In this document: positions 1,409 to 32,418 of the stretch, in pieces
How positions within the stretch are numbered: the stretch's first letter is position 1
Layout of the letters: each line of letters opens with the position of its first letter
Assembly (NCBI GenBank): GCA_900540595.1
Contig: UQGL01000024.1
Coordinates: 1 to 41,176, forward strand
Length of the DNA: 41,176 nt
Direction: 5' to 3'
DNA from: an uncultured Oscillospiraceae bacterium
GTDB lineage: Bacteria > Bacillota > Clostridia > Oscillospirales > Ruminococcaceae
Position numbers and translations under genes: made by a program
The notes under the pieces: generated by a model
Told to the model about the DNA's origin: nothing
The model's database searches: none
Seen by the model: the letters and a program-made list of their open reading frames with translations, nothing else

Positions 1409-3739
1409 ATGAAAAAGCGTCTGTTGGCTGTGCTTTTGGCCTGCTGTATGGCGGCGGGCATGGCCAGCGCAGTCTTTGCGGAGGAGGAGCCGCCCCTGCC
1501 CGCAGCGGCGGCCGCCGAGGCCCCGCCTGACCCGGCACCGACCGAGGCCCCCGCCCCGGAGCCAACCCCGGAACCAACCCCGGAGCCGACCCCGGAGCCA
1601 ACACCGGAGACAACCCCGGAGCCGACCCCGGAGCCAACACCCGAGCCGACCGAACCCCCCGCGCCGACAGAGACCCCGGCACAGGAGCCGCCCCCCGCGC
1701 CAAGCGAGGCACCGACCCCAGCGCCGACCGAGACCCCGGTGCCCACCCCGGCACCGACCGCGACCCCGGCCCCCGCACCGCAGCAGACGGCCACACCCGA
1801 GACCGCCCGCGCCCCGGTGCTGCGTGCCCTGCCGGAGATGACCGCCCAGCCGGCCGCCGTGACCGGGGTGGTGCTCATCGACAGCATTGCCGCCGATGGC
1901 TGTCTGACCGCGCAGGTCAACGGCAGTGACGAAAAGCTGCCGGGGGCCGTCTACACATGGTATCGCAGCAGGGATGGGGCTGACTGGCAGACCGTGACCC
2001 CGCAGGTTTGCTCCGGCTCAGGCTGGAACATCGAGGCGGGCAGCGAGCAGCGGCTCAACGCGGCACTCGATTCCTGCGTGGCGGGCATCGGCGATGCGGA
2101 CAGGCTCTATTATAAAGTGGAGGTCACCGGCGCAGACGGCACCGCCTCGGCCGCCCAGACCCGGGTGGCCTACTACATCCAGCTGCAGAACGGCAGCTTT
2201 GAGGCCCCCGCCGTGGCCGGCAGCAGTGCGCTGTACTACCCCTTTACGGCCAAGCGGTCGCACTTTATCCAGACGGCGGACGCCGACACCAACCCTGCCA
2301 TTGTATGGCGAACGACCGGCGCGGCCCCCCACTGGAGCAGCCTTGTCAACGGCCATTACATAGAGCTTGTGGACGGCACAGGCAGCAGCTACACCGATCT
2401 GATCGATGGGGAGCTGCGCACTGACCCCAACGACCCGTCCGTCTGCTACCACACCCCCGGCGCCTATGACGGCAGCCAGTTTGCCGAGCTGAACTGCCAG
2501 GCCTACGGCGCACTGTATCAGGATGTGCTGACCGTGCCCGGCACCACGCTGCACTGGTCGCTGGCGCACCGGGGCCGCGCGGGCAGTGACTCAATGGCGC
2601 TGCTGATCGCGCCGGTCGCGGTGGCGCAGCAGATCACCGAGATCCTGACGCAGGCCTCGGCCGATACGACCGGCGGCAGCGTGCGCAGCGCACTGGACCG
2701 GACGGTGGACTACAACGGCCAGCCGGTCACGATCCGCAGCTTTATGGTCGGCGGGGAGATGACGGACGGCAACACCGCCTGGGTGACCCACCGGGGCGAC
2801 TACACGGTGGCGGCGGGGCAGTATCTGAGCCGGTTCTTCTTTCTCGCACTGTCCTGCGCAAGCGGGGACCGGCGGGAGGGCAATCTGCTCGACAAGGTCT
2901 GGTTCAGCACCGAGCCGGAGCCACCGGTCATGGGCAGCGGCAGCCTGCAGCTGACAAAGGCCGTGGAGCAGGACGCCTACCGCACCGAGGCCGCCGCCGT
3001 TACAAACACCTTTTCGATCGAGCTGCCTGCCGGCAGCTATACGCTGACCTATGCGGACGGCACGGCCGAGACGCGCACCCTTGCTGCGCCCGGCGCGCTG
3101 CGCTTCGGGCTGCGCGGGCTGCAGAGCGTCACGATCGGCAGCCTGCCCGCCGGCCGGTATACCGTGACCGAGACCGACCACCCCGATCTGGACAGCGCCT
3201 ACTGCACGACAACGGCCGCCGAGGCGCAGACGGAGGTGGAGGTGATGACCGGCGCCACGGCACAGGCCGTCATCACAAACCGGTACGCGCCGTGGCGCAG
3301 CCTGACGATCACCAAGCAGGTGACGGGCGGCTACGGCGATACCCGCCGCGCCTTTGCCTTTACGGCGGCTGTGGACGGCGTGCCGGTGACAGCCGACCGC
3401 GCGGCCGTGACCGCTGCGGGCGGTGCGGCGCTGACGGCGGCGGGCTTCACGATCCCCCACCGGGGCAGCGTGACGATCGGGCATCTCAAGCCCGGGCAGA
3501 CCCTGACCGTCAGCGAGGAGGCGCTGGCGGATTATGAGACAAGCTTTGCCGACGGCACCGCCGTGACGCAGGGCGGCCAATGGACCGGCGCGGTGGGGCA
3601 GAGCGACACGGCGCTGACCTGCCGCAACAACAAGGACGGCGTACCGCCCACCGGGCTGCGCCGGGACGCTGCGCCCGCGCTGGCGGCAGTGGCGGCGGCG
3701 CTGGTCTGTGCGCTGCTCCGCCGCCGAAGGGGGGTGTGA
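1409..3739 (+). CDS. Pilus tip adhesin, sortase-anchored (VPPTG motif)
   Basis: 776 aa; ATG 1409 follows AAAGGAGG at 1392-1399. Residues 1-24 are a signal peptide. A Pro/Thr/Glu stalk of PTPEPTPE-type repeats follows (about 25-125), then a long unique region (about 140-500) with NGSFEAP, QFAELN and LYQDV motifs typical of beta-sandwich modules in large clostridial surface proteins. Two Cna-B/FctA-like domains come next, starting LQLTKAV and LTITKQV and ending in TNRY and CRNN; the Lys and Asn are the residues expected to form intramolecular isopeptide bonds. The C terminus has VPPTG (about 745-749), a hydrophobic segment and RRRR. Being the largest protein and first in the operon fits the position of Cpa-type tip adhesins. 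The ligand is unknown. The proline-rich repeats make the opposite strand look open, but that is a shadow. Confidence 0.88.
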   Translation: MKKRLLAVLLACCMAAGMASAVFAEEEPPLPAAAAAEAPPDPAPTEAPAPEPTPEPTPEPTPEPTPETTPEPTPEPTPEPTEPPAPTETPAQEPPPAPSEAPTPAPTETPVPTPAPTATPAPAPQQTATPETARAPVLRALPEMTAQPAAVTGVVLIDSIAADGCLTAQVNGSDEKLPGAVYTWYRSRDGADWQTVTPQVCSGSGWNIEAGSEQRLNAALDSCVAGIGDADRLYYKVEVTGADGTASAAQTRVAYYIQLQNGSFEAPAVAGSSALYYPFTAKRSHFIQTADADTNPAIVWRTTGAAPHWSSLVNGHYIELVDGTGSSYTDLIDGELRTDPNDPSVCYHTPGAYDGSQFAELNCQAYGALYQDVLTVPGTTLHWSLAHRGRAGSDSMALLIAPVAVAQQITEILTQASADTTGGSVRSALDRTVDYNGQPVTIRSFMVGGEMTDGNTAWVTHRGDYTVAAGQYLSRFFFLALSCASGDRREGNLLDKVWFSTEPEPPVMGSGSLQLTKAVEQDAYRTEAAAVTNTFSIELPAGSYTLTYADGTAETRTLAAPGALRFGLRGLQSVTIGSLPAGRYTVTETDHPDLDSAYCTTTAAEAQTEVEVMTGATAQAVITNRYAPWRSLTITKQVTGGYGDTRRAFAFTAAVDGVPVTADRAAVTAAGGAALTAAGFTIPHRGSVTIGHLKPGQTLTVSEEALADYETSFADGTAVTQGGQWTGAVGQSDTALTCRNNKDGVPPTGLRRDAAPALAAVAAALVCALLRRRRGV

Positions 3740-9060: not shown

Positions 9061-9232
9061 GGCAACACCGCACAATTCCCGCCTAACGGCTTAAGCACCG
9101 CTCCGGCGGCTGCGGCACGGCATCTGCGTTGCCAAAATGCTCGATAAGACATCCAGTATTATCTGCGCTTTTGGCTTAGCATCTGCCGCACCTCGCTCGC
9201 CGTATCGGCACTTAGAATTATGCGGTATTGCC
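9061..9232. mobile_element. MITE-like element, 172 bp, with terminal inverted repeats (copy 2)
   Basis: The left end GGCAACACCGCACAATTC and the inverse of the right end, GGCAATACCGCATAATTC, match at 16 of 18 positions. The element is flanked on both sides by TTAT (9057-9060 and 9233-9236), a possible 4-bp target duplication. It encodes nothing. A second, partial copy sits at 1-52. The insertion lies exactly at the 3' end of the tetR gene; the right TTAT supplies the TAA stop, and removing the element would restore the same stop, so the gene was not altered. Confidence 0.75.
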
Positions 9233-9793
9233 TTATTTGTCGATGCGGCAGGCGTTCAGGGATTTGGTGATGTCCCCATGGATCAGGGTCGATACGCGCT
9301 CCACAAGGGCGGCGGGGTCCTCCTTCATGCCGGTGCGCACCCATTCCAGCGTCAGGCCGACAAAGGCGTACTTGTAAAAATCGGCGATGAACTCCTTGTC
9401 CTCCTCGCGCACCGTCATGCCGGCAGCCTTCTCCTCCACCACGCCGATCATCAGATCGTAGGTCACGCGGTAGAGGTAGCTCTCGATATGCTCGCGGCTG
9501 ATCGAGTGGTAGACATTCGTAAAAAACACCTTGTCCCGCTGCACGGCCTGCAAAATCTGCAAAAAGCCCTGCTGCCAGGTGTCGTAGGTCTTTTGCCCGG
9601 CCAGCGCGCGGGTGGCATTCTCGATGCAGGCCCATTCGACCAGATCGTAGATGTCCTTGAAATGGTAGTAGAAGGTCATGCGGTTCACGCCGCAGTGCTC
9701 GGTCAGGTCGGTCACGGTGATCTTGTCCAGCGGCTTTTCAGCCAGCAGCTCTTTCAGCGATGCGACCAGCGCGCGTTTTGTCATTTGAGACAT
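9233..9793 (-). CDS. TetR/AcrR family transcriptional regulator
   Basis: 186 aa. The start at 9793 (MSQMTKRALV) is chosen because AAGGAG lies 9 nt upstream; an in-frame ATG at 9859 has no ribosome site. Residues about 5-55 form the TetR DNA-binding domain, with the helix-turn-helix in ITVTDLTEHCGVNRMTFYYHFKDIYDLV-type sequence (positions about 24-50). The C-terminal ligand domain (about 70-185) resembles the DhaS-like subgroup. It is convergent with ohyA and divergent from the Nudix gene, with one dispersed hairpin repeat (9861-9887) in the shared upstream region. Ligand and targets are unknown. Confidence 0.88.
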   Translation of the reverse strand: MSQMTKRALVASLKELLAEKPLDKITVTDLTEHCGVNRMTFYYHFKDIYDLVEWACIENATRALAGQKTYDTWQQGFLQILQAVQRDKVFFTNVYHSISREHIESYLYRVTYDLMIGVVEEKAAGMTVREEDKEFIADFYKYAFVGLTLEWVRTGMKEDPAALVERVSTLIHGDITKSLNACRIDK

Positions 9794-9860
9794 GGGTGCG
9801 TTCTCCTTGTTATAAGCGTTACGGCGGATGCGGGGCGTCGGGGACGCCGCCCCCTGCAAC

Positions 9861-9887
9861 CGTAGGGGCGGATTCCATATCCGCCCG
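9861..9887. repeat. Single GTAGGGGC hairpin module (family A core)
   Basis: A lone copy of the 27-bp module that starts CGTAGGGGCGGATTCC and folds back through ATATCCGCCCG. The same module forms the core of the arg operon elements. It lies between the divergent tetR and Nudix genes. Confidence 0.85.
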
Positions 9888-9995
9888 TGGCCGTTTGCGG
9901 CAATATCACTATTATAAAAGAAGATTATGAATTTTTAAACCCCCGCACCCGCTCCCATAGCGTCACGACCCGCTTGCGGGCCATGCAAGAAAAAA

Positions 9996-10024
9996 TTGCG
10001 GAAAGGGAGAAACTGTGGTATAAA
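9996..10024 (+). promoter_or_regulatory. Promoter of the Nudix gene
   Basis: TTGCGG (9996-10001), 17-bp spacer, TATAAA (10019-10024), about 35 bp ahead of the chosen start codon. Confidence 0.6.
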
Positions 10025-10057
10025 AAGGATAATAAATCTGTTAAGGAAGTGTTCCCC

Positions 10058-10618
10058 ATGCCTGAAATGCTGGATATTGTCGATGAAAACGGCGTCCCCA
10101 CCGGTCAGAGCGTGCCGCGCACTGTGGCCCACGCCGAGGGGCTGCGCCACCGCACCAGCCATGTCTGGATCGTGCGGAAAAGGAACGGCGCGGTGCAGGT
10201 GCTTTTGCAGATGCGCTGCGCAGCCAAGGATTCCTACCCCGGCTGCTATGATATTTCCTCGGCCGGGCATATCCCGGCGGGGGATGAGTTTGTCGGCTCG
10301 GCCCTGCGGGAGCTGAAGGAGGAGCTGGGCGTGACCGCCGCGCCGCAGGACCTGCATGTCTGCGGGCTGCGCCGCTTCCGCTTTGAAAGCGTCTTTCACG
10401 GCAAGCCGTTTAAGGACAATCAGGTCAGCAAGGTGTTCTGCCTCTGGCTGGACAAAGAGGCCGAGGACTTCACTGTGCAGCGGTCAGAGATCGACTATGT
10501 GAAATGGTTTGATCTGGACGAGGCGATCCGCGCCGTGGACGAGGGGACGATACCGAACTGCATCTTCCCGGAGGAGCTGGGGATGGTGAAGAAGTTTGTG
10601 GCGGGGGCGAAGGGGTAA
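10058..10618 (+). CDS. Nudix hydrolase, isopentenyl-diphosphate-isomerase-like subgroup
   Basis: 186 aa from ATG 10058 (AAGGAAG upstream, promoter just before); longer in-frame starts would lie in front of the promoter. The Nudix box spans residues 70-92: GHIPAGDEF then RELKEELGV, with Asp in place of the first Glu, a conservative change. The opening LDIVDENGVPTGQ and the HRTSHVWIV segment match Nudix proteins annotated as YfcD/IDI-like. They hydrolyse nucleoside-diphosphate-linked compounds with Mg2+; the substrate cannot be deduced. True IDI activity is unlikely to be proven from sequence. A family B repeat follows at once. Confidence 0.88.
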   Translation: MPEMLDIVDENGVPTGQSVPRTVAHAEGLRHRTSHVWIVRKRNGAVQVLLQMRCAAKDSYPGCYDISSAGHIPAGDEFVGSALRELKEELGVTAAPQDLHVCGLRRFRFESVFHGKPFKDNQVSKVFCLWLDKEAEDFTVQRSEIDYVKWFDLDEAIRAVDEGTIPNCIFPEELGMVKKFVAGAKG

Positions 10619-10750
10619 AGCCCCTCCGGTCATCGCTTCGCTCGACCACCTCCCCACTTGCGTGAGGAGGCTTTCACGCGGGCGAAGCCCGCGCAAAAAA
10701 GGCTCCCCCTCCGGGGGAGCTGGCCGAGCCTGCGAGGCCTGAGGGGCTTT
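10617..10750. repeat. Family B dispersed palindromic repeat (B1, divergent copy)
   Basis: GC-rich sequence with nested hairpins (for example GCGGGCGAAGCCCGC and GCTCCCCCTCCGGGGGAGC) ending in a CCTGAGGGGC motif. It shares the architecture of copies at 16651, 32267 and 40647 but is clearly diverged from them. It fills the gap between the Nudix stop and the argG promoter region. Confidence 0.65.
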
Positions 10751-10799
10751 GCCGCTTTGCCGCTGGCACCACTCGTGTTGCGAAAACTGCAATTTTGTG

Positions 10800-10828
10800 T
10801 TGCTCATTGCGAAAAACCGTGCTATAAT
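10800..10828 (+). promoter_or_regulatory. Upstream argG promoter (P1)
   Basis: TTGCTC (10800-10805), 17-bp spacer, TATAAT (10823-10828). The leader between P1 and P2 holds an 8-bp inverted repeat, AACCTGCC (10908-10915) with its complement at 10946-10953. Confidence 0.6.
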
Positions 10829-10960
10829 ACCCGTATCGGTGCTGTGTATACATACATGTCTGTATATTTTTGCAGGCATCCGCTGCATAAACGCATAACT
10901 ATTCAGCAACCTGCCTAAAACAAACCGGAATGTAGAAAATCCTTTGGCAGGTTTGCCCTC

Positions 10961-10988
10961 TTGCAAAATGTATAAAAGAGTGTATAAT
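10961..10988 (+). promoter_or_regulatory. Proximal argG promoter (P2)
   Basis: TTGCAA (10961-10966), 16-bp spacer, TATAAT (10983-10988). The predicted start lies just before the ARG box at 11000-11017, so an arginine repressor bound there would block P2 and act as a roadblock to P1. Confidence 0.75.
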
Positions 10989-10999
10989 ATGCAGCAATG

Positions 11000-11017
11000 A
11001 ATGAATAAATATTCAAG
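11000..11017. promoter_or_regulatory. ARG box, operator for ArgR/AhrC
   Basis: AATGAATAAATATTCAAG matches the ArgR/AhrC consensus TGAATwwwwATTCA in all 14 core positions (11002-11015). It lies about 12 bp downstream of the P2 -10 element. This predicts repression of the operon when arginine is plentiful. The argR gene is not in the window. Confidence 0.85.
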
Positions 11018-11077
11018 GCACACAGCAAGCAGCAACACCCTGCGGGTCTTGATAAATACAGAGAGGGGAATTTTATC

Positions 11078-12316
<1,239 letters not shown>

Positions 12317-12344
12317 TTTATAAGCGAACGAACGCCGAATAAGC

Positions 12345-12377
12345 AACCGCCAAGGGGCGCGGCAACCCTTTGGCGGT
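12345..12377 (+). terminator. Hairpin after argG, possible partial terminator
   Basis: AACCGCCAAGGG pairs with CCCTTTGGCGGTT around a short GC-rich loop (one bulge), followed by TTGG rather than a clean T-run. It may cut transcription between argG and argH and so lower distal expression. Confidence 0.5.
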
Positions 12378-12394
12378 TTTGGCGTTACTAAAAA

Positions 12395-12612
12395 AGATAA
12401 AAGATAATAGATAAAAGATAATAAAAAATGTGGAGTTTTGGCCCGGGGCCAAAACAAAAAAACGTAGGGGCGGATTCCATATCCGCCCGTCAACAGGCAG
12501 ACGACCTGCGGGCGCATATAGAATGCGCCCCTACGGAGGCAGAAAAATTTGAGCGGTGCGCCAGCACCGCGATCCACCAATTTTATTATCTATTATCTTT
12601 TATCTATTATCT
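12395..12612. repeat. Family A palindromic element, copy A1 (argG-argH gap)
   Basis: 218 bp. Left arm: four 7-bp units GATAAAA/GATAATA in tandem. Right arm: the same heptamers inverted (TATTATC/TTTTATC). Inside are a TTTTGGCC/GGCCAAAA hairpin, two facing GTAGGGGC hairpin modules (12463-12489 and 12509-12535) and a GCGGTGC/GCACCGC hairpin. The arms are AT-rich in a GC-rich genome. It ends 19 bp before the argH start, leaving the GGAGG ribosome site outside. Confidence 0.9.
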
Positions 12613-12631
12613 AAAAAACGGAGGTTTCACT

Positions 12632-14005
12632 ATGCCCCAACTTTGGCAGGGCCGGGCCAGCAAGGCCGTTGACAGCCGCGTAAACGATTTTAACTCCTCC
12701 ATCCGCTTTGACGCGCGGATGATCGAGCAGGATATTCAGGGCAGCCTCGTCCACTCGGCCATGCTGGGCAGACAGGGCATCATCTCCCAACAGGATGTGG
12801 ACGATATTCACAAAGGTCTGCACTCTATTTTGGACGATCTGCACAGCGGCGCGCTGGAGATCGACCCCAATGCCGAGGATGTACACACCTTTGTGGAGCA
12901 GACGCTGACCGCCCGCGTCGGTGACGCCGGCAAGCGGCTGCACACCGGGCGCAGCCGCAACGATCAGGTCGCGCTCGACATCCGGCTTAACCTGCGCGCC
13001 GCAAGCGAGCATATTCAGGGGCAGATAAAAGAACTGATCACCGTGCTGTGCGATCAGGCCGAGAAGGGCGCGGGCTATGTCATGCCCGGCTACACCCATC
13101 TGCAGCGCGCCCAGCCGGTCACCTTCGGCCATCAGCTGATGGCCTACGCATGGATGCTGCTGCGCGATCTGGGCCGTTTGCAGGACGCCACCCGCCGCAT
13201 GGACGCCGAGTGCCCGCTGGGCAGCGGCGCACTGGCCGGCACGACCTACCCGCTTGACCGCTTCTATACGGCCGAACAGCTCGGCTTTGCCGCCCCCTGC
13301 GGCAACTCGATCGACGGCGTGTCCGACCGTGATTTCTGCATTGAGCTGTGCAGCGCCATGGCCACCTGCATGATGCACCTCTCCCGCCTGAGCGAGGAGA
13401 TCATCCTGTGGTGCAGCTGGGAGTTCAAGTTCATTGAGCTGGACGATGCGTTTACGACCGGCTCGTCCATTATGCCGCAGAAGAAAAACCCCGATGTGAC
13501 CGAGCTGATCCGCGGCAAGACGGGGCGCGTCTACGGCGATCTGAACACGCTGCTCGTCATGATGAAGGGCATCCCGCTCGCCTACGACAAGGACATGCAG
13601 GAGGACAAGGAGGCCATTTTTGACGCGGTGGATACGCTGGAGCTTTGCCTGCGCACCGTCACGCCGATGCTGGCCACCATGACCCCGCTGCCCGCCAATA
13701 TGCGCCGCGCCGCCGCCAAGGGCTTTATCAACGCGACCGACTGCGCCGACTACCTGACCAAGAAGGGCATGCCCTTCCGCGATGCCTACAAATGCACCGG
13801 CACGATGGTGGCAGCCTGCATCCGCGAGGGCAAGACGCTGGAGGAGCTGACGCTGGACGAGTTTAAGCAGTACAGCGACCTGTTTGCGGAGGATGTGTAT
13901 ACCGCCATCGACCTGACCACCTGCTGCGAGGGCCGCACCAGCTACGGCGGCCCGACGAAGGCAAGCGTGATGAAGCAGGTTGCGCTGGTGAAGGGGAAGT
14001 TGTAA
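12632..14005 (+). CDS. argH: Argininosuccinate lyase
   Basis: 457 aa. ATG 12632 follows CGGAGG; the open frame runs further up only through the repeat element. It splits argininosuccinate into arginine and fumarate, the last step of the pathway. The fumarase/aspartase superfamily signature GSSIMPQKKNPD holds the catalytic serine loop, and HTGRSRNDQVALD and YTHLQRAQPVT carry substrate-binding residues. The stop codon is 2 bp from the next palindromic element. Confidence 0.98.
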   Translation: MPQLWQGRASKAVDSRVNDFNSSIRFDARMIEQDIQGSLVHSAMLGRQGIISQQDVDDIHKGLHSILDDLHSGALEIDPNAEDVHTFVEQTLTARVGDAGKRLHTGRSRNDQVALDIRLNLRAASEHIQGQIKELITVLCDQAEKGAGYVMPGYTHLQRAQPVTFGHQLMAYAWMLLRDLGRLQDATRRMDAECPLGSGALAGTTYPLDRFYTAEQLGFAAPCGNSIDGVSDRDFCIELCSAMATCMMHLSRLSEEIILWCSWEFKFIELDDAFTTGSSIMPQKKNPDVTELIRGKTGRVYGDLNTLLVMMKGIPLAYDKDMQEDKEAIFDAVDTLELCLRTVTPMLATMTPLPANMRRAAAKGFINATDCADYLTKKGMPFRDAYKCTGTMVAACIREGKTLEELTLDEFKQYSDLFAEDVYTAIDLTTCCEGRTSYGGPTKASVMKQVALVKGKL

Positions 14006-14007
14006 AA

Positions 14008-14230
14008 AGATAAAAGATAATAGATAAAAGATAATAAAAAATGTGGAGTTTTGGCCGAAGGCCAAAACAAAAAACATACCGTAGGGGCGGATTCCATATC
14101 CGCCCGCGGCACCTGCCGTAAGCTGCACGGGCGCATATAGAATGCGCCCCTACGGAGGCAGAAAATTTTGAGCGGTGCGCAGCGCCGCGAACCACCAATT
14201 TTATTATCTATTATCTTTTATCTATTATCT
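14008..14230. repeat. Family A palindromic element, copy A2 (argH-argC gap)
   Basis: 223 bp with four heptamer units in the left arm, the inverted heptamers in the right arm, and the same order of internal hairpins as A1. Its inner spacer is the same as in A3. It begins 2 bp after the argH stop and ends 19 bp before the argC ATG. Confidence 0.92.
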
Positions 14231-14249
14231 AATAATCAGGGGTGCAAGT

Positions 14250-15191
14250 ATGGGAAAGTACAAAATCTTCGTGGATGGAAGTTCCGGCACTACCGGGCTG
14301 CGGATCGCGGATCGGCTGGCAGAGCGGGATGAATTTGAAATTCTGAAAATTTCCGAGGCAGACCGCAAGGATGTCCGCGCCCGGGCGGCGGTCATCAATG
14401 AGAGCGACCTCTCCTTCCTCTGCCTGCCCGATGACGCCGCGCGCGAGGTCATGCCGCTGGTGCGCGAGGATGTGCGGATTCTCGACACCAGCACGGCGCA
14501 CCGCACAGCGCCCGGCTGGGTCTACGGCCTGCCGGAGCTGCACGGCACCCGCGCGGCGCTGCCTGCCGCCGCCCGCGTGGCGGTGCCCGGCTGCCATGCC
14601 ACCGGCTTTATCGCACCTGTTGCGCCGCTGGTGGAGCGGGGGCTTATCCCCAAGGCTGCGCACCTCACGGTCACAAGCCTGACCGGCTACAGCGGCGGCG
14701 GCAAAAAGATGATCGCCGAGTACGAGGGCGAGCGCGTCAACACGGCGCTGAATGCCCCGCGCCCCTATGGGCTGGCGCTGCACCACAAGCATCTGCCGGA
14801 GATGACCGCCGTCACAGGGCTGGACACCGCGCCCAACTTTGTGCCGATCGTGGCCGACTACTACGCCGGTATGGAGACGATGATCCCGCTGGATCTGGCG
14901 GCGCTCGGCATCACGGCGCAGGCGGTGGCCGATACGCTGGCCGATTACTACGCCGGGCAGGCGATGATACGGGTGCATCCGCTCGGCGAAGGAACGGACG
15001 GAGGCTTTCTGGCCGCCAACAAGCTTGCAGGCAAGGACACGCTGGAGATCTTCTGCCTGCCCAACCCGGACGGCACCCAGCTGCAGCTGATCAGCCTGTT
15101 TGATAACCTGGGAAAAGGCAGCTCCGGCGCCGCCGTGCAGTGCATGAACCTGATGCTGGGGCTGGAGGAAACCAAGGGGTTAGAAAGATAA
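14250..15191 (+). CDS. argC: N-acetyl-gamma-glutamyl-phosphate reductase, short (type 2) form
   Basis: 313 aa, the short AGPR type. ATG 14250 follows AGGGGTG. It reduces N-acetylglutamyl phosphate to the semialdehyde with NADPH. The Rossmann opening is KIFVDGSSGTTGLRI, the catalytic Cys lies in VAVPGCHATGF, and TGYSGGGKKM and HHKHLPEM follow. Oddly, the last two codons and the TAA stop fall in the beginning of the next palindromic element (first heptamer at 15187), so the repeat provides the stop and the protein C terminus (GLER) may have been altered by the insertion. Confidence 0.96.
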   Translation: MGKYKIFVDGSSGTTGLRIADRLAERDEFEILKISEADRKDVRARAAVINESDLSFLCLPDDAAREVMPLVREDVRILDTSTAHRTAPGWVYGLPELHGTRAALPAAARVAVPGCHATGFIAPVAPLVERGLIPKAAHLTVTSLTGYSGGGKKMIAEYEGERVNTALNAPRPYGLALHHKHLPEMTAVTGLDTAPNFVPIVADYYAGMETMIPLDLAALGITAQAVADTLADYYAGQAMIRVHPLGEGTDGGFLAANKLAGKDTLEIFCLPNPDGTQLQLISLFDNLGKGSSGAAVQCMNLMLGLEETKGLER

Positions 15192-15395
15192 AAGATAAAA
15201 GATAATAAAAAGTGTGGAGTTTTGGCCCGGGGGCCAAAACAAAACCGTAGGGGCGGATTCCATATCCGCCCGCGGCACCTGCCGTAAGCTGCACGGGCGC
15301 ATATAGAATGCGCCCCTACGGCGGCAGAAATTTTTGAGCGGCCGTAAGGCCGCGATCCACCAAATTTATTATCTATTATCTTTTATCTATTATCT
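15186..15395. repeat. Family A palindromic element, copy A3 (argC-argJ gap)
   Basis: 210 bp with three heptamers in the left arm and the full inverted right arm. Internal hairpins are as in A2; the last hairpin is GCGGCC/GGCCGC. It overlaps the argC stop codon and ends 21 bp before the argJ ATG. Confidence 0.92.
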
Positions 15396-15416
15396 AAAAA
15401 AAGAGGGGTACATACA

Positions 15417-16643
15417 ATGAGCAACTTCAAATCTATTCCCGGCGGTATCTGTGCGCCGCAGGGCTTTTATGCAGCGGGTGTGCATTGCGGCATCCGCCAC
15501 AACCACGCCAAAAAGGATCTGGCACTCATCAAGGCATCGGTGCGCTGCGCGGGCGCGGGCTGCTATACCACCAACAAGGTCTACGGCGCACCCATCACGG
15601 TGGACCGTGAGCATCTAGCGGACGGCTACGCGCAGGCCATCGTTGTGAACAGCGGCAACGCCAACACCTGCGCGCCGAACGGCCTGCAGCTTGCGCGGGA
15701 TACCTGCGGCCTTGTGGCCGAGGCACTCGGCATCCGCGCCGAGGATGTGCTGCCCTCCTCCACCGGTGTCATCGGGCAGGAGATGAGCATCGAGCCGTTT
15801 GCCCGCGGCATCCCCGAGGCTGCCGCCAAGCTGGCCGCCGATGAGGCAGGCAGCCATGACGCCGCCACTGCCATCATGACCACCGACACCCACCCCAAGG
15901 AGCTTGCGCTGGAGTTCACGGTGGGCGGCAAGCCGGTGCGCATCGGCGCTATCGCCAAGGGTTCCGGCATGATCCACCCGAACATGGCCACGATGCTCCT
16001 CTTTATGACGACCGATGCCAAGGTTGAGCCGGCCACCCTGCAGAAGGCGCTCTCCACCGTTGTGCCCGCGACCTTCAACCAGATCTCGGTGGACGGCGAT
16101 ACCTCCACCAACGACACGGTGCTGCTGCTGGCGTCCGGCCTGTCGGGTGCAGAAATCGTTGACGGTACGCCCGATTATGATACCTTCGTTGCCGCGCTGA
16201 CCGAGGCCGCCGAGCAGCTCAGCCGTGAGCTGGCCGGGGACGGCGAGGGCGCGACCAAGCTGTTGGAATGCACCGTCACCGGCGCACCCGACCTGCTGAC
16301 CGCCCGCGCGGTGTCCAAGAGCGTCATTCACTCGACCCTGTTCAAGGCGGCCATGTTCGGTGCGGACGCAAACTGGGGCCGCGTGCTCTGCGCCATCGGC
16401 TACACGCCGGGGGACTTTGACATCAGCCGGACCTCGGTGCGGCTCAAGAGCAAGGCGGGCGAGGTCTTTGTCTGCGAGAACGCCGCCTACCACCCCTACA
16501 GCGAGGACGAGGCCGCCAAGGTGCTCAAGGAGAATGAGATCGACATCCTTGTAGACCTTGGCAGCGGCAGCGCTACCGCCAAGGCCTGGGGCTGCGATTT
16601 GACCTATGACTATGTGAAGATCAACGGGGATTATCGCACCTAA
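15417..16643 (+). CDS. argJ: Bifunctional ornithine acetyltransferase / N-acetylglutamate synthase
   Basis: 408 aa, full length. ATG 15417 follows AGAGGGG. It transfers acetyl from N-acetylornithine to glutamate, recycling the acetyl group, and in many bacteria also makes N-acetylglutamate from acetyl-CoA. No argA or argE is seen here, which fits a cyclic pathway. The proenzyme cleaves itself at the Ala-Thr bond in KGSGMIHPNMATMLLF, making alpha and beta chains; this motif is intact. NSGNAN and DGDTSTNDT are further family signatures. Confidence 0.97.
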   Translation: MSNFKSIPGGICAPQGFYAAGVHCGIRHNHAKKDLALIKASVRCAGAGCYTTNKVYGAPITVDREHLADGYAQAIVVNSGNANTCAPNGLQLARDTCGLVAEALGIRAEDVLPSSTGVIGQEMSIEPFARGIPEAAAKLAADEAGSHDAATAIMTTDTHPKELALEFTVGGKPVRIGAIAKGSGMIHPNMATMLLFMTTDAKVEPATLQKALSTVVPATFNQISVDGDTSTNDTVLLLASGLSGAEIVDGTPDYDTFVAALTEAAEQLSRELAGDGEGATKLLECTVTGAPDLLTARAVSKSVIHSTLFKAAMFGADANWGRVLCAIGYTPGDFDISRTSVRLKSKAGEVFVCENAAYHPYSEDEAAKVLKENEIDILVDLGSGSATAKAWGCDLTYDYVKINGDYRT

Positions 16644-16650
16644 CGCAAAA

Positions 16651-16873
16651 GGCTTCCCCCGAGGGGCTGCGCCCGCAGGCGCGTGTCGGAGCGCAACCGC
16701 CGAAGGCGGCTCTTAGCGCGTAGACTGAAGCTGTCGGCGAAGCCGACTGATGAGGGGGAAAGCTGCCCGGAACCGGCCCGCTTCCGGGCAACAACCCGGC
16801 AAAGGACGGTTGCGGCAAAGTTGCCCCTCATCCGGCGCTGCGCGCCACCTTCCCCCGCAGGGGAAGGCAAGGG
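16651..16873. repeat. Family B palindromic repeat, copy B2 (argJ-argB gap)
   Basis: About 223 bp. It starts GGCTTCCCCC, contains a CTGATGAGGG motif near 16747-16757 and the inverse CCCTCATCCGG near 16826, then ACCTTCCCC and GGGGAAGGC. The centre holds extra hairpins (CCGCCGAAGGCGG, GGCGAAGCC). It is the only gap in the operon not filled by family A. The argB ribosome site lies just past its end. Confidence 0.85.
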
Positions 16874-16893
16874 TGTGGGATGTGGAGGAAAAT

Positions 16894-17748
16894 ATGAAAA
16901 ACGAACAAATGGCCCTGCTTTTCAGCGAGGCTACGCCTTATATTCAAAAATACCACGGCAAGACGCTGGTGATCAAGTACGGCGGCAATGCCATGGTCAA
17001 CGATGAACTCAAGCTTGCGGTCATGAACGACCTTGTCACGCTGACGCTGCTGGGCGTGCGCGTGGTGCTGGTACACGGCGGCGGGCCGGCCATCAACGAT
17101 ATGCTCAAAAAGGTCGGCAAGGAATCCCGCTTCGTCAACGGTCTGCGCTATACCGATGCCGAAACGATGGGCATTGTGCAGCAGGTGCTGGCCGGGCAGG
17201 TCAACAAGGATCTTGTTGCGCTGCTCAAGGGACGCGGTGTCGGCCTTTGCGGCATGGACGGCCACATGATCATGTGCCGGCGCAAAACCGATGCCGACCT
17301 CGGCTTTGTGGGCGAGATCGAGCGGGTCAACACAACGCTGATTGACCACCTGCTGGCGGACAGCTTTATCCCGGTCATCGCCACGGTCGGCATGGATAAG
17401 AACGGCGTGCCCTACAACATCAACGCCGACACGGCGGCGGCTGAAATTGCGATTGCGCTGCACGCGGAAAAGCTCGTCAGCATGACGGATATTGTCGGCC
17501 TGCTCCGCGACAAAAACGATGAATCAACGCTGATCCCCGAGGTCGAGCTTTCCGAGATCGAGGGCTACAAGGCAGAGGGCGTCATCGCGGGCGGTATGCT
17601 GCCCAAGATCGAGGGCATGGCGGACGCTATCCGTCAGGGCGTGCATGAGGCGGTCATCATTGACGGCCGGATGCCGCACTCGATCCTGCTGGAAATGTTC
17701 AGCGACAGAGGCGCCGGCACGATGTTTTACCAGAGAGAAAACGGATAA
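16894..17748 (+). CDS. argB: Acetylglutamate kinase
   Basis: 284 aa. ATG 16894 follows GGAGGAAA; upstream in-frame codons lie in the repeat. It phosphorylates N-acetylglutamate with ATP, the controlling step. Amino acid kinase motifs: VIKYGGNAM, VLVHGGGPAIN and INADTAAAEIA. The protein has the extra N-terminal helix (about residues 1-16, MALLFSEATPYI) that in other bacteria links dimers into arginine-inhibited hexamers, so I infer feedback inhibition by arginine in addition to ArgR control. The stop codon lies next to the following element. Confidence 0.97.
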   Translation: MKNEQMALLFSEATPYIQKYHGKTLVIKYGGNAMVNDELKLAVMNDLVTLTLLGVRVVLVHGGGPAINDMLKKVGKESRFVNGLRYTDAETMGIVQQVLAGQVNKDLVALLKGRGVGLCGMDGHMIMCRRKTDADLGFVGEIERVNTTLIDHLLADSFIPVIATVGMDKNGVPYNINADTAAAEIAIALHAEKLVSMTDIVGLLRDKNDESTLIPEVELSEIEGYKAEGVIAGGMLPKIEGMADAIRQGVHEAVIIDGRMPHSILLEMFSDRGAGTMFYQRENG

Positions 17749-17750
17749 AA

Positions 17751-17943
17751 AGATAAAAGATAATACAAAATGCGGCGTTTTGGTCTGGGACCAAAACAAA
17801 GCGTAGGGGCGCATTCCATATGCGCCCGTCAGTCGGCAGGCAGTTTGCGGGCGGATATGGAATCCGCCCCTACGGAGATTTTGAGCGGAGCGCAGCGATG
17901 CGATCCACCAAATTTATTATCTATTATCTTTTATCTATTATCT
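17751..17943. repeat. Family A palindromic element, copy A4 (argB-argD gap), interior inverted
   Basis: 193 bp. Left arm with two heptamers (three counting GATAAAA at the argB stop); right arm complete. The two GTAGGGGC modules are present in swapped order: the GCGCATTCC...ATGCGC form comes first and GCGGATATGG...CCGC second, the reverse of A1-A3. It ends 20 bp before the argD ATG. Confidence 0.9.
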
Positions 17944-17963
17944 AAACAAAGGGGGCTACCCAA

Positions 17964-19148
17964 ATGAATACAGAGGAAACAATCAAGCGGGACAATGCGT
18001 ATGTCCTGCACACCTACGCCCGCAGCCCGGTCGCGCTGGTGGCGGGCGAGGGCATGGTCGCGCGGGACGCCGAGGGCAGGCAGTACCTTGACTTTACCTC
18101 CGGCATCGGCGTTAATTCGCTGGGGTACTGCCACCCCGCATGGGTGCGCGCCGTGGCCGGGCAGGCGGCTGCCCTGCAGCACACCTCCAACCTGTATTAT
18201 ACCGAGCCGTGCGGTGCGCTTGCGCAGGCGCTCTGCGCCCGCACCGGTCTGGATGCCGTTTTCTTCGGCAATTCGGGTGCCGAGGCCAACGAGGGTGCCA
18301 TCAAGTGCGCCCGCAAATACAGCGTGGACACCTACGGCCCCGCCCGCAATAAGGTCATCACCCTCGTCAATTCGTTCCACGGCCGCACGCTGGCCACCCT
18401 GACCGCCACCGGGCAGGATGTGTTCCACCACGACTTCGGACCGTTCCCCGCAAACTTCGGCTATGTGCCCGCAGGTGACTTTGCCGCGCTGGAAAAGGCC
18501 ACGGATGCCGACACCTGCGCCGTCATGCTGGAGCTGGTGCAGGGCGAGGGCGGCGTTGTCGCGCTCGATGCGGATTATGTTGCCAAGGTCGCGGCGTTCT
18601 GCCGGGAAAAGGACATTCTCCTCATTGTGGACGAGGTGCAGACCGGCGTTGGGCGCACCGGGCGGTTTCTGGCGTGTGAGCATTTCGGCTTGAAGCCCGA
18701 CATCGTCACGCTGGCCAAGGGGCTGGGCGGCGGTCTGCCGATCGGTGCGGTCGTGATGAACCAAAAGGTGGCGGCCCATATGGGCCCCGGCTCCCACGGC
18801 TCGACCTTCGGCGGCAACCCGGTATGCTGTGCCGGTGCGCTGGCCGTGCTGGACACGATGGACGAGGCGTTTCTCGCGCAGGTCAGGGAGCGCGCCGCCC
18901 AGCTGCGCGCCGGGCTGGCCGCGCTGCCGCATGTGCAGCAGGTCAGCGGCCTCGGCCTGATGGTTGGCATCGAGCTTGCGGACGGCATCAAGGCCGCCGA
19001 GGTCCGCGCCGCCTGTGAGCGTGAGGGTCTGCTGGTGCTGACCGCCAAGACCCGCCTGCGGCTGCTGCCGCCGCTGATCCTGACCGCCGACGATGTCGCG
19101 GCGGCTCTTGCCACCCTGCGCCGGGTGCTGGAAAACACCCGCAGCTGA
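17964..19148 (+). CDS. argD: Acetylornithine aminotransferase
   Basis: 394 aa. ATG 17964 follows AGGGGG. This class III PLP aminotransferase converts N-acetylglutamate semialdehyde and glutamate to N-acetylornithine. Seen: NSGAEANEGAIK, FHGRTLATLTATGQ, IVDEVQTGVGRTG with the PLP-binding Asp, and TLAKGLGGGLPIGAV with the Schiff-base Lys. It may also serve in lysine synthesis as in other bacteria. It is the last gene of the arg operon; argF is elsewhere in the window. Confidence 0.97.
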   Translation: MNTEETIKRDNAYVLHTYARSPVALVAGEGMVARDAEGRQYLDFTSGIGVNSLGYCHPAWVRAVAGQAAALQHTSNLYYTEPCGALAQALCARTGLDAVFFGNSGAEANEGAIKCARKYSVDTYGPARNKVITLVNSFHGRTLATLTATGQDVFHHDFGPFPANFGYVPAGDFAALEKATDADTCAVMLELVQGEGGVVALDADYVAKVAAFCREKDILLIVDEVQTGVGRTGRFLACEHFGLKPDIVTLAKGLGGGLPIGAVVMNQKVAAHMGPGSHGSTFGGNPVCCAGALAVLDTMDEAFLAQVRERAAQLRAGLAALPHVQQVSGLGLMVGIELADGIKAAEVRAACEREGLLVLTAKTRLRLLPPLILTADDVAAALATLRRVLENTRS

Positions 19149-19160
19149 GGCCGCCCCCCC

Positions 19161-19190
19161 TTGACAGCCGTGGTATACTGGTTGTATTAC
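19161..19190 (+). promoter_or_regulatory. Possible promoter of the YitT gene
   Basis: TTGACA at 19161-19166 with TATTAC at 19185-19190 (18-bp spacer). A TATACT at 19174-19179 is too close to this -35 to be its partner. Confidence 0.4.
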
Positions 19191-19206
19191 TGCCAAGGGG
19201 GAGAAA

Positions 19207-19857
19207 ATGGCAAAAGAAACGCTGCAACAAAAAATAAAGCGGGTGCTGGGGCGGTTCACACCGGGGCGCATCGCCATTATCATGCTGGGCACGGCGATCC
19301 TGTCCTTCGGCATCCACAACATTCACCAGCGCACCGCCATCACCGAGGGTGGCATCATCGGGCTGGTGCTGCTCATCAACCATTGGCTGGGGGTGCCGGC
19401 CTCGATTGCCTCGCCCCTGCTGGATGCAGCCAGCTACGCGCTGGCGTTCAAGTTTCTGGGGTGGGACTTTCTGCTCTCGGCGGGCATTGCCAGCGTCAGT
19501 CTGGCCGGGTTTTACCGCCTCTGGGAGTGTCTGCCCCCGATGCTGCCCGACCTGACGCCCTACCCGCTGGCGGCGGCGCTGCTGGGCGGCGCGTTTGTCG
19601 GCATCGGCGTCGGGCTGATCGTGCGGCAGGGCGGCTCCAGCGGCGGTGATGATGCGCTGGCGCTCGTCATCCACAAGCTGACCGGGTGGAAGCTATCCCG
19701 CGCGTACCTTTTTACCGATCTGACGGTGCTGCTTGCATCGCTGTCCTACATTCCGGTGCGCCGCATCGCGTTTTCGCTCGTCACGGTCACGGTGTCGTCC
19801 CTCCTCATCGACTGGGTGAAGGAGTACACCCCCAAAAACGGCAAAACAAATGTGTAA
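19207..19857 (+). CDS. YitT family integral membrane protein
   Basis: 216 aa; ATG 19207 follows AAGGGGGAG. There are about five to six hydrophobic segments and the family signature TAITEGGIIGLVLL and RQGGSSGGDDALALVI. It corresponds to the membrane part of the YitT/DUF161 family and lacks the soluble DUF2179 domain found in longer relatives. The function is not established; some relatives have been linked to transport. The GGSSGGDD segment is the most conserved feature. It directly follows argD with its own weak promoter. Confidence 0.85.
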   Translation: MAKETLQQKIKRVLGRFTPGRIAIIMLGTAILSFGIHNIHQRTAITEGGIIGLVLLINHWLGVPASIASPLLDAASYALAFKFLGWDFLLSAGIASVSLAGFYRLWECLPPMLPDLTPYPLAAALLGGAFVGIGVGLIVRQGGSSGGDDALALVIHKLTGWKLSRAYLFTDLTVLLASLSYIPVRRIAFSLVTVTVSSLLIDWVKEYTPKNGKTNV

Positions 19858-32266: not shown

Positions 32267-32418
32267 GGCTTCCCCCTTGGGGGAAGCTGTCAGCGGCCCC
32301 GTCCGCTGACTGATGAGGGAAAACCTTACCATTGTCGCCCGCAAGCGGGTTGCCACGGCAAACTTTGCCCCTCATCCGGCCCTGCGGGGCCACCTTCCCC
32401 CACAGGGGAAGGCAAGGA
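32267..32418. repeat. Family B palindromic repeat, copy B3
   Basis: About 152 bp between the converging oppA and argF genes. It opens GGCTTCCCCC with GGGGGAAGC, continues to GACTGATGAGGG, and ends CCCTCATCCGGCCC, ACCTTCCCCC and GGGGAAGGCAAGG. The CCCTCATC and GATGAGGG motifs face each other. Close to B2 and B4 in the right half. Confidence 0.9.

Follow-up and report, generated by a model that had tools for sequence, protein, structure and literature searches.

The DNA examined here is contig UQGL01000024.1 of assembly GCA_900540595.1, from an uncultured Oscillospiraceae bacterium; all 41,176 nucleotides of it are referred to below as the window. It carries an arginine biosynthesis operon, argG-argH-argC-argJ-argB-argD, with all genes in one direction and a large palindromic element in each of the five gaps between them. 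On the forward strand, the genes are argG (argininosuccinate synthase; Pfam PF00764/PF20979) at 11078..12316, argH (argininosuccinate lyase) at 12632..14005, argC (N-acetyl-gamma-glutamyl-phosphate reductase) at 14250..15191 with its TAA stop at 15189-15191, argJ (PF01960) at 15417..16643, argB (amino acid (acetylglutamate) kinase family; PF00696) at 16894..17748 and argD (aminotransferase class III) at 17964..19148. The host appears to be Gemmiger-like, since the best ArgJ relatives found belong to an uncultured Gemmiger (86% identity) and to Candidatus Gemmiger excrementigallinarum (85%). A promoter scan placed a promoter-like site at 10961-10988. Immediately 3' of it lies an ARG-box-like candidate operator for ArgR, TGAATAAATATTCA, at 11002..11015 (+), which suggests a single regulated promoter before argG. 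The label follows the ArgR consensus, and TGAATAAATATTCA is also kept 5' of argG in two related genomes (G020 and G014, introduced below).

Four of the five elements belong to one family, A, and contain a core pair of repetitive extragenic palindromes (REPs). All lie on the forward strand: element 1 in argG-argH (12395..12612, 218 bp, core 12463-12535), element 2 in argH-argC (14008..14230, 223 bp, core 14080-14154), element 3 in argC-argJ (15186..15395, 210 bp, core 15246-15320) and element 4 in argB-argD (17751..17943, 193 bp, core 17802-17874). The argJ-argB gap holds an element of a second family, B, defined by its profile match (16647..16869, +). Family-A ends are the first and last base of terminal 7-bp arrays; the left end of element 4, where the array is shorter than on the right, was read from the sequence. 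These coordinates confirm the layout given in the initial annotation, including starts 2 bp past the argH and argB stops and over the argC stop, and ends just before the next ATG: 19, 19, 21 and 20 bases are left for elements 1-4 (18, 18, 20 and 19 bp from the profile-match ends). Element 1 begins 78 bp past the argG stop and is preceded there by a terminator-like hairpin (12347..12376, +), read from the sequence and from relatives; a similar one was seen by eye in relatives with and without elements. The argC TAA lies within the first 7-mer of element 3. Displacement of this stop by the element was considered and ruled out, as the stop occupies the same codon position in three sister species. 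Elements 2 and 3 share 95% identity across 106 nt around the core. Because of this identity, and because one sister, G020, has element 2 and not element 3, the latter was probably copied from the former. As RNA, one family-A copy folds at -109.6 kcal/mol, against -53.3 +/- 4.2 in shuffled sequences (z -13.5). A tRNA is the sole Rfam match in the window at gathering score; six weak matches within 10400-19400 all fall far under it.

Family A is a composite, in which a shell of about 133 bp carries what is, by its form, a REPIN-like pair of GTAG-tagged REPs in inverted orientation. At its two ends stand 7-mer arrays, inverted relative to each other, of AGATAAT and AGATAAA, with AAATAAT and AAATAAG as variants; such an array contains stops in all three frames, and its length differs among copies and between the arms of one copy. 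Inward of the arrays lie GTGGAG and CCACC boxes and then two small hairpins, which enclose the core, two palindromes in inverted orientation that each carry GTAG on the outer side. In all four window copies, GTAGGGGC and its stem are matched by an inverted partner whose last bases are CTAC, and the inverted pair gives a longer hairpin when the arms are aligned and the fold is computed. When the window copies are aligned with three coreless copies from genome G021 and one G014 copy, the core appears as a separable block; coreless shells exist and align with the window copies of family A. The core has the GTAG-tagged palindrome and inverted pair of GTAG REPs, and the inverted 7-mer arrays supply the terminal inverted repeats of a miniature inverted-repeat transposable element (MITE). 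Family B is a separate palindrome, also present as a short hairpin, b, at the same sites; at window positions 32267-32414, for example, a full B stands where G014 has the short form. The pattern GTAGGGGCGGATTCNATATCCGCCC was found in 42 of 243 loci, with overlapping loci counted. A search for the 7-mer pattern in G014, G020 and G021 returned chiefly short paired arrays and a few single ones. A 14-bp loss in both arms of the G020 argG-argH element was considered as a compensatory change and rejected, as arm lengths do not rise and fall together over 24 copies (r = -0.33). In another genome, the 7-mer of the family-A ends occurs in head-to-tail tracts (G033 C14:5512-5608 and C6:15672-15775). The window also has a lone GTAG REP at 9858-9891, in a divergent gap (9794-10057); it is present in G014 and absent at that place in G020 and G021.

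The nearest genomes among those compared, the sisters G014, G020 and G021, share 87-88% DNA identity with it over the arg genes. Their gap contents were classified by eye, two of the four short hairpins lying under the automatic repeat threshold. The argG-argH gap contains A in the window, B in G014 and A in G020 and G021, where element 1 is orthologous. At argH-argC, the window has A, G014 has B, G020 has A (orthologous to element 2) and G021 has a short b hairpin. The argC-argJ gap is filled by A in the window, by B in G014 and by b in G020 and G021. The full B at argJ-argB is orthologous in G020, with b in G014 and a third family, C, in G021, and argB-argD holds A in the window, a variant of A in G014, B in G020 and C in G021. 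Across the four species, full elements occupy 16 of the 20 arg gaps and short B-type hairpins the other four. Most arg gaps can thus hold different families in different sister species.

Conversely, the argH-argC, argC-argJ, argJ-argB and argB-argD gaps of six relatives (G001, G002, G016, G029, G030 and G038) measure 14-39 bp in 24 of 24 cases; all 24 are without elements because they are too short for one. The initial annotation had looked to sister strains lacking the elements. This held for the six relatives at four junctions, whereas the closest sisters often carry another family instead. Given the empty and differently filled gaps in relatives, the arg elements appear to be recent. As for argG-argH, four of the same six genomes have a gap of 90-91 bp that includes a hairpin, and the G016 sequence does not cover it; in G001 (L001) it measures 1240 bp, with an extra gene past the hairpin, at the place taken by elements in other species, that by eye is membrane acyltransferase-like. 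Sixteen more distant genomes of the genus have downstream arg gaps above 100 bp in 8 of 60 cases (G028, G026, G017, G027, G022 and G019). In Faecalibacterium (L005-L007), other large palindromes were seen by eye in 7 of 12 arg gaps, including argB-argD in all three; this count omits argH-argC, where the genes overlap.

Outside arg, 103 orthologous gap pairs comprise 26 with both gaps filled, 26 with one and 51 with none. Filled pairs differ in family label in 20 of 26 cases outside arg and in 18 of 24 within it, the labels being crude regular expressions. An excess of gaps filled in both species was apparent for G014-G020 (P 5e-5) but became non-significant once both gaps were at least 25 bp (P 0.06, 1.0 and 1.0), and it was discarded. 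Co-filling across species is mostly a matter of tight gaps remaining tight.

Placement relative to genes was sampled in 16 regions, namely the window and stretches of G014, G020 and G021, in which 102 places matched three profiles. Copies of A, B and C from arg served as seeds for the profiles, and arg supplies 10 of the 24 full-length A/C copies and 6 of the 35 full-length B copies. Ten 20-kb stretches (six from G014, three from G021, one from G020) were picked for their A hits, which leaves them unbiased by gap type and inflates the occupancy of G014. Genes in the relatives were called by a simple script, and some starts are wrong (one C copy lies 5 bp from a called start). Among full-length A/C copies, 23 lie between co-directional genes, one between convergent genes and none between divergent genes; the corresponding B counts are 28, 4 and 3. 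Outside arg the figures are 13, 1 and 0 for A/C and 22, 4 and 3 for B. Such placement is not special to arg, as 13 of 14 A/C copies outside it also lie between co-directional genes. Co-directional A/C copies lie at medians of 10 bp from the upstream stop and 23 bp from the start that follows (without arg, 10 and 28), and B copies at 7 and 42 bp (10.5 and 66 without arg). For B, proximity to the stop exceeds chance given the room available (17 copies vs 11.0 expected, P 0.001).

The size of the host gap was expressed as the element-free remainder. Gaps with a remainder of at most 60 bp hold 16 of the 23 co-directional A/C copies, and 9 of 13 outside arg. This class makes up 4-11% of the permissible co-directional gap bases, yet 64-65% of the gaps; per base, the 9 of 13 give P 1e-6 against the higher expectation. 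Five of the 23 copies are orthologues of two arg insertions, and deduplication leaves 15 of 20 at or under 60 bp. A/C copies also differ from B: a remainder of at most 100 bp was found for 22 of 23 against 16 of 28 (P 0.003), and one of at most 60 bp for 16 of 23 against 12 of 28 (P 0.09). Either targeting or a filter of tolerance could explain this placement; that A and B differ in gap size favors some targeting. Six of the 23 copies overlap the called upstream gene by at least 4 bases; in three examples (G020 70533, G021c116a 6039 and G014c67a 6355) the gene has a different stop in G030 or G038. For three A sites and two B sites outside arg, the corresponding gap in G030 was judged by eye to be about 6-20 bp.

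When all co-directional copies are taken together, orientation counted as same to opposite is 13:10 for A/C and 17:11 for B. Simple mixing of A/C orientations was dropped as a description, as it hides a split between arg, where 10:0 run one way, and the remaining copies, at 3:10 (P 0.0004; P 0.003 when arg is counted as seven separate insertions). Occupancy was scored from repeat counts over the clade, and P values for run lengths were obtained by shuffling filled flags among co-directional gaps. Filled gaps number 48 of 159 in G020, 30 of 204 in G021, 105 of 229 in the enriched G014 sample and 9 of 33 in the window. The longest filled run in the window is six, from the gap preceding argG through all five within arg (10619-17963), and is unlikely among these 33 gaps (P 0.0016). 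The same six gaps form the longest run in G014 (P 0.40). G020 has a longest run of five, outside arg (P 0.14), and G021 one of three, within arg (P 0.28). Of 95 co-directional gaps in the stretches sampled from G030 and G038, 1 is occupied by a within-genome repeat, smaller samples revealing fewer repeats. The arg operon is thus a strong example of a state general to these genomes.

Hairpins selected as RNA should tolerate G-U above A-C on the transcribed strand, and palindromes maintained or generated at the DNA level need no such bias. To define stems, each element was aligned to its reverse complement, a procedure blind to G-U, and the control consisted of 123 terminator-like hairpins taken, across all six genomes, from gaps 30-400 bp long, element-bearing gaps included, with mismatches treated alike. 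Sense-strand G-U:A-C counts were 50:81 for A/C and 73:68 for B, against 56:20 in the control; the elements differ from the control at P 8e-7 (A/C) and 0.002 (B). Outside arg the counts were 31:53 for A/C and 52:49 for B, inside it 19:28 and 21:19. The difference from the control persisted when counts were restricted to mismatches flanked by pairs (18:33 and 33:34). The A-C excess over G-U in A/C has P 0.009. The copies are related and perhaps young, which makes the mismatch P values indicative. The missing G-U excess is evidence, short of proof, against selection on RNA hairpins.

A Y1-transposase match was found in 7 of 8 genomes searched. Six loci resembling REP-associated tyrosine transposases (RAYTs) were inspected in G014, G020, G021 and G037, and GTAGGGGC palindromes adjoin the gene or lie within it at two of them. 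The G037 gene matches the NCBIfam REP-associated tyrosine transposase model NF047646 at 82.9 bits (cut-off 80); a REP one base different from that of the window lies just upstream and another lies inside the frame. The G020 gene scores 77.4 bits, under the cut-off, and is flanked by two GTAG REPs of a different stem. The REP in the G037 reading frame (L231 1552-1576) would be co-translated. RAYT-like genes of G020, G014 and G030 adjoin gyrB (L230 1459-1920, L235 1279-1776 and L243 1285-1770), and those at L235 and L243 also precede gyrA (gyrB and gyrA named by eye). The gyrB-linked RAYT looks vertically kept at one site, even in the absence of family A.

We propose, with some confidence, that the elements are small non-autonomous mobile palindromes inserted into an ancestral tightly packed arg operon, where they would have accumulated between each stop codon and the next Shine-Dalgarno sequence; family A would also prefer operon junctions at insertion, beyond being tolerated there. 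RAYT transposases of the GTAG-REP kind may mobilise the family-A core; we infer both this step and the mobility of the elements from their form and distribution. The few bases between stop and ribosome site would be the places where an insertion spares both the upstream protein and downstream initiation, and the three-frame stops of the array would let an insertion over the last codons still end the upstream gene cleanly. The steady spacing to the ATG would be the remainder of the old short gap. The initial annotation had proposed site preference or selection. Site preference is supported by the over-use, per base, of tight co-directional gaps. Selection of a set spacing need not be invoked, as the constant distance to the ATG is what remains of a gap that in relatives is 14-39 bp long. 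Through the insertions, close stop-start spacing between arg cistrons would have been lost, with each gene's ribosome site retained.

Several observations weigh against this proposal. The proximity of A/C copies to stops is what chance predicts given the room (14 observed, 13.5 expected), so targeting of the stop codon itself is unsupported for A. Counted per gap rather than per base, A/C placement is as expected from the 64-65% of gaps at or under 60 bp. At one A site (G014c67a 7832), the gap is long by eye in both G030 and G038. Target-site duplications are not clear: over the 23 of 24 copies usable, the mean is 1.3 bp vs 0.9 bp in shuffled flanks (P 0.03), a weak signal in A-rich flanks. 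A narrow pattern search of G014, G020 and G021 found no transposase with 7-mer ends. Four of the six RAYT-like loci have no GTAG REP beside the gene, and both loci in G014, a family-A-rich genome, are without adjoining GTAGGGGC palindromes. The first two observations are also what a pure filter of tolerance would predict, in which insertion is random and copies survive only between a stop and the next Shine-Dalgarno sequence, those in coding, promoter or leader sequence being lost. That full copies are rarely divergent in placement (0 of 24 for A/C, 3 of 35 for B) agrees with such a filter, which we regard as possible and somewhat short of an even chance. It does not predict that tight junctions are over-used per base, nor that A/C and B, passing the same filter, differ in gap size, clearly at 100 bp and less so at 60 bp. 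In its full form, the junction preference proposed for family A would mean real targeting of the interval from stop to Shine-Dalgarno sequence, perhaps through a step linked to single-stranded DNA or to the transcript, which would turn packed operons into separately translated cistrons whose junctions are re-used by unrelated families; we hold that version to be rather unlikely.

Local copying or gene conversion may also have spread one element among the gaps of the operon, a tentative explanation that we place level with the tolerance filter. The near-identity of elements 2 and 3, with G020 carrying element 2 and a short b at the gap of element 3, is consistent with it, and copying within the operon would account for part of the orientation split. 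It leaves unaccounted for the B, C and variant A elements in the same gaps of the sisters, as well as the copies elsewhere. Alternatively, the elements could be selected RNA elements, hairpins kept between cistrons to set mRNA stability or translation gene by gene, with family identity immaterial. A full or short hairpin in all 20 arg gaps of four species, classified by eye and with families differing, would fit this, as would the strong fold of one A copy, the improbable run of six in the window and the uniform orientation of the ten arg A/C copies. Against it stand the lack of a sense-strand G-U excess both inside and outside arg, unlike in the terminator-like control, the ordinary length of the longest filled runs in the three sisters, and the six relatives that have no elements at four junctions. 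We consider it improbable. The suggestion in the initial annotation that the hairpins adjust expression of each gene is likewise disfavored by the differing families or remnants in the sisters. The tests made gave no sign of individual tuning of the arg genes. They support site preference and do not support gene-by-gene regulation.

The placement principle of GTAG REPs is already known. In the excerpts available of Di Nocera et al. (2013, PMC3733652), these REPs lie mostly between unidirectional or convergent genes, near the upstream 3' end, and often supply the stop codon. As far as those excerpts and the ones of Nunvar et al. (2010, PMC2817692) extend, the family-A core resembles GTAG REPs in its GTAG tag, its palindrome and its inverted pair, and the likeness extends to the RAYT genes that adjoin GTAG REPs in G037 and G020. 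Placement near the upstream 3' end, between unidirectional genes, is also shared (PMC3733652). Unlike the GTAG REPs of those excerpts, the family-A pair is embedded in a larger shell that has 7-bp arrays and also exists without the pair, and full-length family A is convergent in just 1 of 24 cases. The words Firmicutes and Clostrid- are absent from the searched text of both papers.

Comparable intergenic elements occur in other bacteria. MITE-like palindromes such as ERIC/IRU, RUP and Correia are, like the elements described here, non-coding intergenic palindromes of 100-220 bp with inverted ends and many copies. The present elements differ in that neither a clear target-site duplication nor a parent transposon was found, and in ends made of tandem 7-mers in variable number. 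Enterobacterial intercistronic REP/BIME sequences also form hairpins between cistrons near stop codons; the element here is much larger, has its own shell and fills five of five junctions of one operon. No description of repeats in Gemmiger and its kin was found in the open-access literature searched. As far as these searches go, the composite of shell and REP pair, the occupation of all junctions in a single operon together with turnover of families between sisters, and the bias of full-length A to tight junctions are new. Because sister sites are empty or otherwise filled, the operon is a naturally occurring case in which to ask how mobile palindromes reach operon junctions, and how coupling, polarity and mRNA decay respond when a 200-bp hairpin separates each cistron from the next. 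For Gemmiger and its kin, the analysis also documents RAYT-linked GTAG REPs and a shell that carries a REP pair.

Two further features of the window lie outside the operon. An exact 53-base repeat (3-55 = 9183-9235) has its first copy at the window start and could reflect either a genuine duplication or an artefact of the contig end. A reading frame at 1409-3739 contains a 12-bp repeat at 1532-1795 that encodes a proline-rich stretch.

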